The translations under genes were made by a program, and so were the position numbers. A DNA stretch of 64,000 nt from positions 1 to 64,000 of the forward strand of contig JAOACP010000009.1 of assembly GCA_026417795.1 (NCBI GenBank), given 5' to 3'. Positions 4,982 to 63,613 of this stretch are shown here, piece by piece; the stretch's first letter is position 1, and the number at the start of each line of letters is the position of its first letter. The stretch comes from Thermanaerothrix sp. GTDB taxonomy: Bacteria > Synergistota > Synergistia > Synergistales > Synergistaceae. The notes under the pieces were generated by a model. It was given only the letters and a program-made list of their open reading frames with translations. It was not told the DNA's origin and made no database searches.

Positions 4982-7741
4982 TCAACCCTCAAAGGCCGCC
5001 ACCCGGTTCCTGCCGTCCCCCTTGGCCCGGTACAGGGCTTGGTCCGCGTGGTCGTTGAGACGGTCCAGGGACATCCCCTCCCGGAACTCCGCCACCCCGA
5101 AGCTGGCGGTGACCATTATGGATTCCCCCTGGTACTCCACCGGGGCCGACTCTATGCCCCGCCTTACCCGGTCGCACAGCCCCACCGCCCCCTCCAGGGA
5201 GGCGCCGGGCAGCACCATAAGGAACTCCTCTCCCCCGTACCTGCCCAGGATGTCGTAGGGCCTTATGAGGGACTTCACCCTCGATGAAAGCTGGCGAAGC
5301 ACTTCGTCCCCCGCCAGATGCCCGTAGCGGTCGTTTATGGCCTTGAAACGGTCTATGTCCATCATGGCCACCGACAGCCTCGTACCCTCCCGAAGCACCC
5401 GGCTTATCTCCCGCTCCTCCATCTCAAGCAAAGCACCCCGGTTGAAAAGCCCCGTGAGCGGGTCATGCCGGGCCAGGAACCGAAGCTTCCGCTGCACCTC
5501 CATCACCCGGGTGCCGGACAAAACCCGCAAGGTGAGGTCGTCCGGGTCGAAGGGCTTCACCACGTAGTTGTCCGCCCCCGACGCCATGGCCCTCACCAGG
5601 TCCTCCTTGGTGTCCCTCACGGTTATCATGATCACGTAGGTGTACCTCTCGCTGTGGGCCTCCGCCTCCCTAAGGCGCCGGATCACCTCCACCCCGTCCA
5701 TGCGGGGCATCATGCAGTCCATGAGCGCCACGTCCACCGCGCCGGACAAGAGGATGTCCAAGGCCTCCTCCCCGTCCCGGGCGGTGAGCACCCTTATACC
5801 CCTGGGGGAGAATATGCGCTGGAGGGCCTCCCTGGAGGACTGGTTGTCGTCCGCCACAAGGACCCTCATCCCCTCCGGGAACTCCACGTCCGAGAACCTC
5901 ACGGGCACCCCCATGGGAACCCTGAACTGGGCCCCGCCGGCGGCCTTCCACTGGCCGAAGGAGAGCGCCGCCCCCTTGAACTCGTGCAGGGCCTTCAAAA
6001 ACAGGTCCTCGTCTCCCCGGCGGAAGGACTCCAGCAGAACGCCCTCAAGACGGGCCATGTCGGACCGGAAGGTCTCAAGAAGGTCCGACTTGAGCCCAAC
6101 CTCCGAAGGGGCATGGTGCTTCAGGGCCCAGGCGAGCTCCCCAAGGTCCAAGGGCTTCCGGAGCACCTTCAAAAGCCCCTCCCCTATGAAACGATCCTCC
6201 TCTTCCTGGCTCACCCCGGCGGTGAGTCCCACCACCTTGGCGGAAGAGGCCTCCCTAAGGCGCCGCAACAGCGCCACCCCGTCAAAGGCCGGAAGGTTAA
6301 GGTCCATCAGCACGAAGTCGAACTCCTCCCGGGACGCCGCTTGGATCGCCTCCTCCGGAGAGGACAGGCCCTTCACATCCACCCCGCACTCCCGCAGAAC
6401 AGCGCAGGCGGCGGCAAGGGACGTGTTGTTGTCGTCCACCACCAGCCCCTTGAGCCCCTCCAAGGGGCAGCGGGTCCCCTGGTGGCCGCTCAAGGGGAGC
6501 TCCAGGGTGAACACCGTCCCGTGCCCCCTCCTGGACCGGACCGTTATGTCCCCTCCCATCCGGTTCGCAAGGCCCTTTGAAAGGCAAAGACCAAGCCCCG
6601 CCCCGGTGGAGCTCCCGGCAAAGGGGACGAAAAGGCGCCCCATATCCTCCAGGTCCATGCCCTCGCCGCTGTCCTCCACCGCAAAGTACAGCTTATCCTC
6701 GGAAATCCATCCCGATAGGGATATGTGCCCCCGGCGGGTGAACTTGAGGGAGTTTGAGAGCAGGTTCACCAGCACCTGCCTTACCCTCCTGGGGTCCCCA
6801 AGGACCCTCTCCGGCAGGCGGTCGTGGAAGAACCGGAACTCCAGCCCCTCGTCCTGGGCCCTCAGGCGAAATGACGATGCCACGGACTCCAAAAGCTCCG
6901 CCGGGGAATAGGGCACGTTCATCACGTCGAGCCTGCCCGCCTCAAGCTTGGAGTAGTCCAACAGGTCGTCCAGAAGGCTGTTTAAGTTCTCGCACTCGCT
7001 CAAAAGCACCTCCAGCCTGTCGGGGTACCCCGCTGGCAGTTCCTCCTTCGACATCCCCCGAAGAAGCCCTATTATCCCGCCCAAGGGGTTTCGGATCTCG
7101 TGGCCTATGTGGGCTAAGAAGGCATCCTTGAGGCGGTTGGCCTCCTCAAGAGCCCGCTTGGTCTCCTCCAGCCGCTGGACGTTCTCCCCCAGCCGCCGGT
7201 TCAAGGACCGCACCTCCTCAAGGCGCATGGTGTTCTGTATCGACACGGCGGTGTAGGACATGAGGGTCCTGAAGAAGGCCACCCCGATCTCGGGGACCTC
7301 CTCGGGGCTCTCCTCCTGGGCCGCCAGGAAGACCCCCATTATCCTTGAAGGGGTGCTCAGCGCCGCCAGCAGCACGTTGCCCTGGGGCAGGGACAGGAAC
7401 ATGGGCTGGGGGTGCGCCAGCGCCCAGGCCAGGGTGCCGTCGGAGCTCAATGCCTCCAGGGCCCCATCGAAGTCGAAGTCCCCCTCCTCCCCGGCGGCCC
7501 GGTAAAGCTCAAGGCCGTCGTCGGAGAAGAGGCGGCAGCTCCAGCGGCCCAGCTTTATCAGGGACCTCGCCCTGTCGGCGGCCCTTACTATTATCCGCTC
7601 CACCCCGTCCTCGTCCCCCACCGACGCGGGGACCAAACCAACCGCCACCGCCAATATCCGGTTTACCCGGTCCCTCTCCTCCTCAAGAAGGCGGAATCGC
7701 CTTTCCAGTTCCAACATCCTAGAAGCCGAGGTGTTCATCAA
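4982..7741 (-). CDS. Hybrid sensor histidine kinase / double receiver / diguanylate cyclase
   Basis: Soluble 919-residue signalling protein. In order: an N-terminal coiled coil (1-30), a GAF-like domain (about 45-175), a second coiled coil, HisKA with phospho-His 214 (HEIRNP), HATPase with the N-box NLLSNSLKF near 327, receiver 1 (phospho-Asp 480), an HPt-like helix bundle with His 586 (HEFKGAALSFG), receiver 2 (phospho-Asp 675), and a GGDEF domain with active site GGEEF at 836-840. RPYD at 827-830, five residues before GGEEF, matches the c-di-GMP inhibitory I-site. A full phosphorelay therefore ends in c-di-GMP synthesis within one chain. No membrane segment is visible. The HDOD gene lies upstream in the same direction with a 14-bp gap, so the two are probably co-transcribed. 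Confidence 0.93.
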   Translation of the reverse strand: MMNTSASRMLELERRFRLLEEERDRVNRILAVAVGLVPASVGDEDGVERIIVRAADRARSLIKLGRWSCRLFSDDGLELYRAAGEEGDFDFDGALEALSSDGTLAWALAHPQPMFLSLPQGNVLLAALSTPSRIMGVFLAAQEESPEEVPEIGVAFFRTLMSYTAVSIQNTMRLEEVRSLNRRLGENVQRLEETKRALEEANRLKDAFLAHIGHEIRNPLGGIIGLLRGMSKEELPAGYPDRLEVLLSECENLNSLLDDLLDYSKLEAGRLDVMNVPYSPAELLESVASSFRLRAQDEGLEFRFFHDRLPERVLGDPRRVRQVLVNLLSNSLKFTRRGHISLSGWISEDKLYFAVEDSGEGMDLEDMGRLFVPFAGSSTGAGLGLCLSKGLANRMGGDITVRSRRGHGTVFTLELPLSGHQGTRCPLEGLKGLVVDDNNTSLAAACAVLRECGVDVKGLSSPEEAIQAASREEFDFVLMDLNLPAFDGVALLRRLREASSAKVVGLTAGVSQEEEDRFIGEGLLKVLRKPLDLGELAWALKHHAPSEVGLKSDLLETFRSDMARLEGVLLESFRRGDEDLFLKALHEFKGAALSFGQWKAAGGAQFRVPMGVPVRFSDVEFPEGMRVLVADDNQSSREALQRIFSPRGIRVLTARDGEEALDILLSGAVDVALMDCMMPRMDGVEVIRRLREAEAHSERYTYVIMITVRDTKEDLVRAMASGADNYVVKPFDPDDLTLRVLSGTRVMEVQRKLRFLARHDPLTGLFNRGALLEMEEREISRVLREGTRLSVAMMDIDRFKAINDRYGHLAGDEVLRQLSSRVKSLIRPYDILGRYGGEEFLMVLPGASLEGAVGLCDRVRRGIESAPVEYQGESIMVTASFGVAEFREGMSLDRLNDHADQALYRAKGDGRNRVAAFEG

Positions 7742-59572: not shown

Positions 59573-60766
59573 TTACTTCTTTATCGCAAAGTACTTCTCG
59601 GGCACCTTCACGGAGGTGGCCTTCATGAAGCCCTTGCCGAACACGTAGGTGTCCTGGTAGACCAGCACGAAGTTCTTCATCTTGACGCCGGTGTTAACGT
59701 CCCGGTAGAACTGGCCGTTCCACTTGGCGCCGGGGGTGTACTTGTCGTAGCACTTCCAGAGGTCCTCCAGGTTCCCCAGCTTCGCCTTCTTCTCCACTAT
59801 GCGCTTACCGTACTCCGCCAGGGCGCAGACGGTGCTCCAGCCGTAGCTGTAGGCCCAGGTGCCCATGCGGCCCTTGCCGCCGGCCTTGATGACCGCCGCC
59901 TCGACCTTCTTGAGGATGGCGGGCCAGTTGCCCTTCTCCTTGGAGAGGTCGATGCCGAAGGCGCCGGGATAGCCCATGATGGGGGAGGGAAGGTCCGGCT
60001 CCACGAAGATGGCCCCGTAGGCGGCCACCTGCTTCAGCAGGGGCTCCGTCTGGGCATCGTTGGTGCAGAAGAAGGCGGTCTCCTTGCCGTACTTCTTCAC
60101 CCACGCGGGCACCTTCTCGAGGATGAACTGCTGGGCCCCCGCCACACCCACGTCGCTGGTGGGGTCCGGGGCGGTCTCGAAGGCGAACTTAAGGCCTAAG
60201 TCCTTGCAGGCCGCCTCCATTATGGCCCGCCGGCGGGAGAGCAGCTCGTAGCTCATGTGCCGGGGGAAGGATATGTGCACGAAGGTCTTGGCCCCAAGGC
60301 GCTTGGCGGTGTGGATTATCAGGTACCCCCGGGCTATGTTGTCCACCCCCACCGCGAAGTCCGCCACCGACGATATGACCCCCGGGTCCTCCTGGGGCTC
60401 ACCGGCGAGGCATATTATGTCCGGCCGCTTCTCCTTTATGCGGCGGAAGGCCTCGGTGGTGCCAGGTATGGCGTCGTCCACCACCACCACCTTCATCAGT
60501 GGATCGTCGGCGAAGCCCGCGATCTGGGATATGGTGGTCTCCATCTCGGACATGAAGTTGTCCGGCAGGGTTATGTGCTTCACCATCCCCCCCTTGGCCA
60601 CGTCCCCGTACTCCTGAACCATCCTCTCCGCCCCCCTCAGGGTGTCCTCCGCCTGGGAGACCGTAAGGGTGGCTATGCCTATGTGGAACTTGGGCGCCCC
60701 GAAGGCGGCGCCGGCGCTTACCACCAGGCACAAAAGAACCCCCGCCAACAACCAAAGCCTCTTCAA
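59573..60766 (-). CDS. DUF3798 family substrate-binding protein (copy 2)
   Basis: About 397 residues. The frame is open to 60898, but TTG 60766 lies 8 bases after GGAGGGGG and begins a proper signal peptide (MKRLWLLAGVLLCLVVSAGA). The mature part closely tracks copy 1 (FHIGIATLTVSQAED, VVVDDAIPGTTEAF, FFCTNDAQTEPLLKQVAAYG). The central third is nearly identical at DNA level, while signal peptides and some surface segments differ. It has its own consensus promoter and a following terminator, so it can be made in excess of the importer. Confidence 0.85.
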   Translation of the reverse strand: MKRLWLLAGVLLCLVVSAGAAFGAPKFHIGIATLTVSQAEDTLRGAERMVQEYGDVAKGGMVKHITLPDNFMSEMETTISQIAGFADDPLMKVVVVDDAIPGTTEAFRRIKEKRPDIICLAGEPQEDPGVISSVADFAVGVDNIARGYLIIHTAKRLGAKTFVHISFPRHMSYELLSRRRAIMEAACKDLGLKFAFETAPDPTSDVGVAGAQQFILEKVPAWVKKYGKETAFFCTNDAQTEPLLKQVAAYGAIFVEPDLPSPIMGYPGAFGIDLSKEKGNWPAILKKVEAAVIKAGGKGRMGTWAYSYGWSTVCALAEYGKRIVEKKAKLGNLEDLWKCYDKYTPGAKWNGQFYRDVNTGVKMKNFVLVYQDTYVFGKGFMKATSVKVPEKYFAIKK

Positions 60767-60811
60767 ACTCCATACCCCCTCCGCATAAAGGTTTATAGAT
60801 CCTTGGGGGAT

Positions 60812-60840
60812 AAAATATATTTCACCCAAGCCCTTGTCAA
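60812..60840 (-). promoter_or_regulatory. Promoter of DUF3798 copy 2 and probably the importer operon
   Basis: On the minus strand a perfect TTGACA (60840-60835), 17 bp, TATTTT (60817-60812). Confidence 0.75.
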
Positions 60841-61538
60841 CATCTGATATACCATTGATGTGTCTTAATCGACCAGGTTGGGACCACGCCGCCGCCAAGG
60901 GCAGGACAGGTCAACTCCTTTTAACTCCATATGAGGGCGACTCCCAGGTGATGCCGATAGGTCCGGCCAGGGGACGCGCTGGATTTCAAGGCGGGCGGCT
61001 GGGGCCACGGCGCACCCTCCCCGCTGGAATGCCCACGGGGGACTTGCGGAAGAAACCGGATTACCTGGCGGAATGAGGAAAAACGGGGATGAACGCCCTT
61101 GCCCGGCGCGGATTTTACAAGCCGCAAGCGGCATAAGGGGTGGAAGGGGGGCAGGAGGCTAGAAGGACGCCCCTAGAGCGGGAAGGCGACTGGCCCTTGG
61201 CAACGGGGAAGGGCTTATTGGGGGGATTTTGAAGCCCCAAGGAGCCGGCCCCCGGGGCCAATAAAAGCCCCTATGGGGCCTATGAAAGCCCCGCCGGGGC
61301 CAATGCGGGGCAAAGAAAGCCCCGTGGGCTCCTAGGGCCTTGAGCAGCCCCACACAGCCCCCAGGGCACATTAGAGGCCCGCGGGGATCTAAAAGCCCTG
61401 CGGGCCTCTAAAAACCTCCAGGGACACTTAACGCCCCAAGGGTCCTTGTCAGTTCAGGGGGGGCGAGGGAAGGCCTCCGGGGGGCAAGAGGATGGAGGGG
61501 AGCTCCTTTATCCCCGCCCCTCCCCCCGGCCTTGATGT
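60841..61538. other. Gene-free tract rich in short GC palindromes
   Basis: No credible gene. The left part (60841-61180) shows nothing recognisable. From about 61190 to 61420 there is a run of short GCCCC-N-GGGGC hairpins spaced by A-rich linkers, then a 12-bp inverted repeat (TTAGAGGCCCGC at 61371-61382 and its complement at 61400-61411). Confidence 0.6.
61228..61352. repeat. Array of GCCCC/GGGGC mini-hairpins
   Basis: Successive units such as GGCCCCCGGGGCC, AGCCCCTATGGGGC, AGCCCCGCCGGGGC and AGCCCCGTGGGCT are separated by short AT-containing linkers (AATAAA, CTATGAA, AATGC). The spacing is irregular and the sequences are related but not identical. Confidence 0.6.
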
Positions 61539-63144: not shown

Positions 63145-63173
63145 TTGACAGACAATAAACCCCGCGGTATTAT
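63145..63173 (+). promoter_or_regulatory. Strong promoter of the 34-codon gene
   Basis: Perfect TTGACA (63145-63150), 17 bp, TATTAT (63168-63173). One of the best promoter matches in the window. Confidence 0.8.
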
Positions 63174-63242
63174 TCGTTCACGAAAAGAGAGAGGCCCAAG
63201 GAAGTAAAACACACCCAAGGAACGCAGGAGGATTGAGCAGCC

Positions 63243-63347
63243 ATGATATTCGACCCCCAGTACATCATAAAGATGGAGCTGGTTCTGGCCGGCAAGGAAG
63301 AAATCAACGACGAAATCTACAAGTTGCTTAGATCCGTGGCCATGTAG
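63243..63347 (+). CDS. Small protein of 34 residues, unknown function
   Basis: ATG about 11 bases after AGGAGG. The product starts MIFDPQYIIKMELVLAGKEE and ends YKLLRSVAM; it is predicted mostly helical, amphipathic, with no membrane span. It has its own consensus promoter 70 bases upstream and a strong terminator 40 bases downstream, so it is a complete transcription unit. I do not recognise a family. Codon use (many GAA/AAA/ATA) is less GC-biased than neighbours. Confidence 0.7.
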   Translation: MIFDPQYIIKMELVLAGKEEINDEIYKLLRSVAM

Positions 63348-63388
63348 GCCGTATCAAACAACCCTTAATATCCACTTCCCCCTCTACC

Positions 63389-63438
63389 CGGCGCGGGGCC
63401 GCTTGCTTAAACAAGCTGCTCCGCGCCGTTTATATTTT
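63389..63438 (+). terminator. Terminator of the 34-codon gene
   Basis: CGGCGCGG / CCGCGCCG stem with a second inner GCTTG/CAAGC pair, followed by TTTATATTTTT. Confidence 0.85.
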
Positions 63439-63613
63439 TCTACCCCTCCCCCGACACTCCTTTTGATAAAATAAAAAGTAAATCCTCTGAGGACCCCGGC
63501 GCCCAGTGGGTTTCCCAGTCCCTTTGGGCGGGAGAAAACCCGGTGGGTTCCAGTGGAGCTATAAAAAACATAAAAACAAAAACGCGTCTTGCCAGGATCG
63601 GAGGTAAAGCCCT

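Follow-up and report, generated by a model that had tools for sequence, protein, structure and literature searches.

Results

A 34-codon frame between a promoter and a terminator

Gene callers readily overlook proteins shorter than about 50 residues, and the locus described here, near one end of a 64,000-nt stretch of the genome of Thermanaerothrix sp. (the window), raises the question of whether a frame of only 34 codons is a gene and whether it acts through a protein, through its RNA, or through both. An earlier note had proposed that the frame is a self-contained unit encoding a tiny protein outside known families. The features of the locus, in window coordinates, are as follows.

63145..63150, + strand: -35 hexamer TTGACA, with which the conserved promoter block TTGACAGACAATAAACCC..GTATTATTCGTTCACG begins
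63151..63158, + strand: conserved spacer segment GACAATAA, a possible operator; in the three genus genomes the motif TTGACANNCAATRA always lies at the small gene
63168..63173, + strand: -10 hexamer TATTAT
63180..63193, + strand: inferred transcript start with conserved ACGAAAAGAGAGAG, kept in 3/3 genomes of the genus
63226..63231, + strand: Shine-Dalgarno sequence AGGAGG
63243..63347, + strand: 34-codon gene MIFDPQYIIKMELVLAGKEEINDEIYKLLRSVAM, with relatives in the phylum, a low dN/dS and a helical hairpin model
63369..63386, + strand: C/U-rich 3'UTR element TATCCACTTCCCCCTCTA, a candidate base-pairing seed, conserved in the genus and complementary to the tctA start
63389..63439, + strand: intrinsic terminator (stem-loop 63389-63428 and U-rich tail TTTATATTTTT), called from its fold energy and from hairpins in the other five copies
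63464..63472, + strand: extended -10 (TGATAAAAT), identified by eye, which probably serves the TPR gene downstream (63614-) as a promoter of its own

Relatives of the frame and selection on it

The frame consists of 34 codons and a TAG stop that ends at 63347, and both it and the AGGAGG were found where the earlier note had placed them. When 185 Synergistota genomes were searched with the peptide, 11 gave matches at E ≤ 1, and from these we picked six true copies by eye. These are in all three genomes of the window's genus (G000, which is the window's own genome, G172, and G171), in one genome of another genus of the same family (G122), and in two genomes of a different family (G018 and G017). 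Identity to the G000 peptide is 82% in G172, 68% in G171, 35% in G122, and 38% in each of G018 and G017. A profile built from the six copies retrieved them from the 185 genomes at E 5e-21 to 3e-18, scores that are not independent of its construction, and the support that is independent of the peptide comes from the promoter. The next best match, which is unrelated, had an E of 0.017, and 53 other genomes with profile matches at E ≤ 10 were treated as noise. The family is patchy, a recognizable copy being missing from 179 of the 185 genomes.

The earlier note had named lack of conservation of the reading frame as evidence against the gene; the frame survives in these relatives (6/185 genomes), and the start, the ribosome-binding site, and the open frame are conserved across the six aligned copies. 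Four copies stop after 34 codons and those of G017 and G018 after 42, and M1, P5, I8, E12, G17, L28, and R30 are invariant in all six. The dN/dS comparison suggested in the earlier note gave 0.20, 0.21, and 0.21 for the three genus pairs, with G018/G017 at 0.06. Under random placement of an equal number of changes, as few amino-acid changes arose in 90, 0, 1, and 0 of 2000 draws for these four pairs, respectively, the first genus pair being weak evidence alone. The distant pair G000/G122, which is near saturation, gave a dN/dS of 0.32 (14/2000 draws). Judged by these substitutions, the frame is under purifying selection at the protein level; the six copies form a real conserved gene family.

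Additional scans covered other collections. A peptide scan of the contigs of named genomes returned 35 pattern stretches with no confirmed relative, and a DNA pattern scan of named genomes, with a pattern unfit for the genus copies and G122, recovered the family only in L065 (UBA5560), the record that corresponds to G018, among 16 matches. None of 38 pattern stretches in viral contigs was confirmed, and the search of phages and plasmids gave no match to the small protein.

The promoter block

The promoter had been described in the earlier note as a perfect TTGACA-17-TATTAT. The -35 hexamer is indeed perfect and the spacer is 17 nt long, but TATTAT matches the consensus at only five of six positions, making 11/12 in total. 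Within the 64-kb window, on both strands, this is the one promoter matching at least 11 of 12 positions, compared with 0.1 expected from 10 Markov-1 simulations. The AGGAGG stands 11 nt from the ATG at 63243, a slightly long spacing, and a purine-rich sequence of the Shine-Dalgarno kind precedes the ATG in 6/6 copies. Such a strong consensus promoter suggests an abundant product.

Across the 38 nt that run from the -35 as far as the probable start, a start that was placed by its distance from the -10, the window is identical to G172, G171, G122, G018, and G017 at 36, 33, 27, 25, and 23 positions, respectively. In the middle of the 5'UTR, the identical aligned columns number 24/42 between G000 and G172 and 16/38 between G000 and G171. 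On these alignments the promoter block is the best conserved part of the locus, and the conservation within the spacer suggests a bound regulator. Each of the three genus genomes contains the unusual motif TTGACANNCAATRA a single time, and so no regulon under a shared promoter was found. A longer promoter pattern, drawn from the six copies, matched seven places with zero mismatches in the 185 genomes, namely the six family copies and one place in G062 that lacks the family peptide; at one mismatch, six more places were found, none with the family peptide. Searches with a TTCGTTCACGAA-type pattern, which is unfit for G000 and G172, gave matches in G129-G131 and G065 that looked unrelated.

The terminator and the transcript

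The strong terminator described in the earlier note was confirmed: its predicted folding energy is -32.3 kcal/mol (z -6.6), and none of 200 shuffles folded as well. A strong terminator-type hairpin lies 3' of the gene in 6/6 copies; the list returned by a generic terminator scan does not contain the hairpin of the small gene. There were no Rfam matches at gathering score in the window. The GA-rich 5' end and the CU-rich 3' element seem to be paired in the predicted ensemble of three transcripts. A clamp between these 5' and 3' parts was considered and rejected, as the duplex energies in the six copies were no better than those of shuffles (p 0.07 to 0.46) or of cross-species pairings.

The predicted protein

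No member of the family had a match above cut-off in Pfam, NCBIfam, or PHROGs (best E among the six 0.14, 0.084, and 0.099, respectively). The best PDB sequence match (E 0.0019) covered 12 residues of a mini-G protein and was judged to be chance, and a Foldseek comparison of the predicted structure with the PDB gave no match. These searches bear out the earlier note's placement of the protein outside known families; by its sequence the protein is new and in kind it is known, with no described family among Pfam, NCBIfam, PHROGs, and PDB. AlphaFold, given the six-row alignment, predicted a helical hairpin with helices at about residues 5-15 and 23-33 (mean pLDDT 78, pTM only 0.42; pLDDT 62 to 78 across five models). 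The peptide is charged throughout and by eye has neither a membrane stretch nor a hydrophobic stretch of the sort found in type I toxins. A ribbon-helix-helix autoregulator was rejected, there being no strand in the AlphaFold model and no such Pfam match. By analogy, the protein most likely belongs to the small regulators that bind a partner.

We therefore consider it probable, taking the locus as a whole, that a conserved, small, soluble, partner-binding protein is encoded here by a monocistronic gene that stands alone, and that its synthesis is controlled at the promoter block. RNA polymerase would start near 63180 and stop near 63438, giving an RNA of ~260 nt, from which ribosomes would make a soluble 34-residue protein with two helices around a conserved glycine. 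Like other very small regulators, the protein may work by binding to a larger partner, and its synthesis would be controlled at the near-invariant promoter block. Counting against a pure protein gene is the 3'UTR element, which is seemingly conserved in the genus and is not needed by such a gene.

The C/U-rich element and tctA

The element is identical at 17/17 nt between G000 and G172, and G171 has a changed but similar version, whereas the remainder of the 3' spacer has diverged; the element is conserved only within the genus. As a separate observation, the G017 and G018 loci (L056 and L057) carry another conserved stretch, CCCTTGGAACGTCTCTCGT, between the stop and the terminator, which does not resemble the C-rich element seen in the genus. 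An 11-nt complement search with the element pointed to a gene start in G000 itself; we take the gene to be tctA of a tctCBA tricarboxylate-transporter operon (L121/L131, G000:C2 about 84014-87000). At this junction (G000:C2 around 85508-85524), 18 contiguous complementary nucleotides extend over the stop of the upstream tctB and the Shine-Dalgarno sequence and GTG start of tctA. The predicted duplex is about -35.1 kcal/mol, and none of 215 putative starts in 264 kb of G000, called heuristically, pairs as strongly (best -28.3).

These results raise the alternative that the ~260-nt transcript is a dual-function RNA, which would encode the peptide and also pair through the C/U element with G-rich ribosome-binding sites, foremost that of tctA in G000, blocking translation. 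Consistent with this, VcdRP of Vibrio cholerae is similarly laid out: its description reports an RNA, VcdR, with a base-pairing site of four cytosines in its 3' part, and a 29-residue protein, VcdP, that binds citrate synthase (PMC8672173). The two are of similar size, and each has one tiny frame and, in its 3' portion, a conserved stretch rich in cytosine (PMC8672173), but they belong to distant phyla, the candidate target of the small gene is not conserved, and they are likened by layout alone.

However, several results argue against the dual-function RNA. The tctA gene was not found in G172, though G172 keeps the element, and the duplex with G171's own tctA (-21.2 kcal/mol) is unremarkable, with 37 of 177 starts pairing at least as strongly. 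Even in G000, a chance match at L152, within a coding frame that is presumably glycosyltransferase-like, pairs as strongly as tctA (-35.3 versus -35.2 kcal/mol). In a wider complement search of G000 and G172, which allowed G-U pairs and two mismatches, near-complementary sites were no commoner than with a reversed-pattern control (37 versus 41 in G000 and 35 versus 45 in G172). Contexts were read for 71 of the 72 places, and because two share one stretch, 70 stretches were scored; the element itself aside, tctA was the only exact match. The element is also missing from G017 and G018. Because tctA pairing is unremarkable in G171 and G172 has no tctA, the pairing is striking in one genome, G000, and unsupported in the others. 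For the peptide-encoding regulatory RNA that the earlier note had raised, the conserved element and the 18-nt tctA complement in G000 offer a specific lead, but the pairing is not seen in the two sister genomes. We regard the dual-function RNA as possible but unlikely. Somewhat more doubtful is its fullest form, in which one Synergistota transcript would yield both a new 34-residue helical regulator and 18-bp antisense silencing of the tctA start, with a target set rewired between species.

SR1P of Bacillus subtilis, which has 39 residues, offers a further comparison, and we take its peptide to differ from the 34-residue peptide. It binds an enzyme and is encoded by the small RNA SR1, and in this respect the pair resembles the dual-function reading (PMC8501984).

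Neighboring genes

The TPR gene lies downstream of the small gene in four of the six genomes (G000, G172, G171, and G122). The 9-12 kb flanks examined in G017 and G018 revealed neither a TPR gene nor a gene resembling LPG synthase, and in these two the gene upstream of the small gene is one that we take to encode a 2-hydroxyacid dehydrogenase. With a terminator after the short frame and the TPR gene as the next gene in most copies, the locus could be a leader peptide and attenuator of that gene. Against this, the downstream gene is not constant, a -10-like site belonging to the TPR gene lies 3' of the terminator (by eye, the same TG-N-TAAAAT in G172 and G171 and TACAAT in G122), the frame contains no run of a regulatory codon, and the peptide sequence is conserved beyond the genus. 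Moreover, the TPR gene is present in 38 of 52 genomes of the family, but the peptide accompanies it in only four. Because the neighbors differ in the distant family, the small gene would not be a leader of the next gene, and we consider this reading highly improbable. As judged from the aligned loci, the small gene stands alone, with a conserved promoter of its own and a terminator, both of which are kept when the neighbors change.

Other features of the flanks were also recorded. The divergent gene at window positions 62118-62999 matches Pfam LPG_synthase_C (E 4e-34); it adjoins the small gene in the three genus genomes and was not found nearby in G122, G017, or G018. The window also encodes, at 59573-60898, a secreted-looking protein (GAPKFHIGIATLTVSQ...) conserved in the genus, and in G171 two similar secreted-looking proteins stand in tandem (L053 7630-8829 and 9003-10217) beside an ABC-type ATPase. 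Upstream of the small gene in G017 (L056 ~5825-6300), a stretch of ~100 bp is tandemly doubled, seen as a repeated translated segment; this duplication was not seen in G018.

Discussion

Two further explanations of the locus can be set against the stand-alone protein gene. A non-coding RNA containing an accidental 34-codon frame would account for the conserved 5' and 3' elements and for the strong predicted fold of the whole transcript (z -3.5), to which the terminator contributes much. However, the codon-position pattern and dN/dS argue for translation, as does peptide similarity that reaches other genera, where the DNA search shows no DNA similarity, and we give this explanation very little credence. 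A chance coincidence of signals, each of them common when taken singly, is for practical purposes ruled out because the frame is found with the same layout in six different genomes, dN/dS is well below 1, and the same promoter is present in all six.

Small proteins of the Synergistota are little studied. Short conserved frames missed by annotation are likewise reported in the GMSC catalogue (PMC11364881) and in surveys of frames in sRNAs (PMC5521070), which differ in being catalogues and not a family. Our literature search found no paper on small proteins of this phylum, in which the RNA of the small gene would be a dual-function RNA if it pairs with tctA as well. The family itself is sharply and testably defined by its promoter block, its peptide profile, and its terminator.
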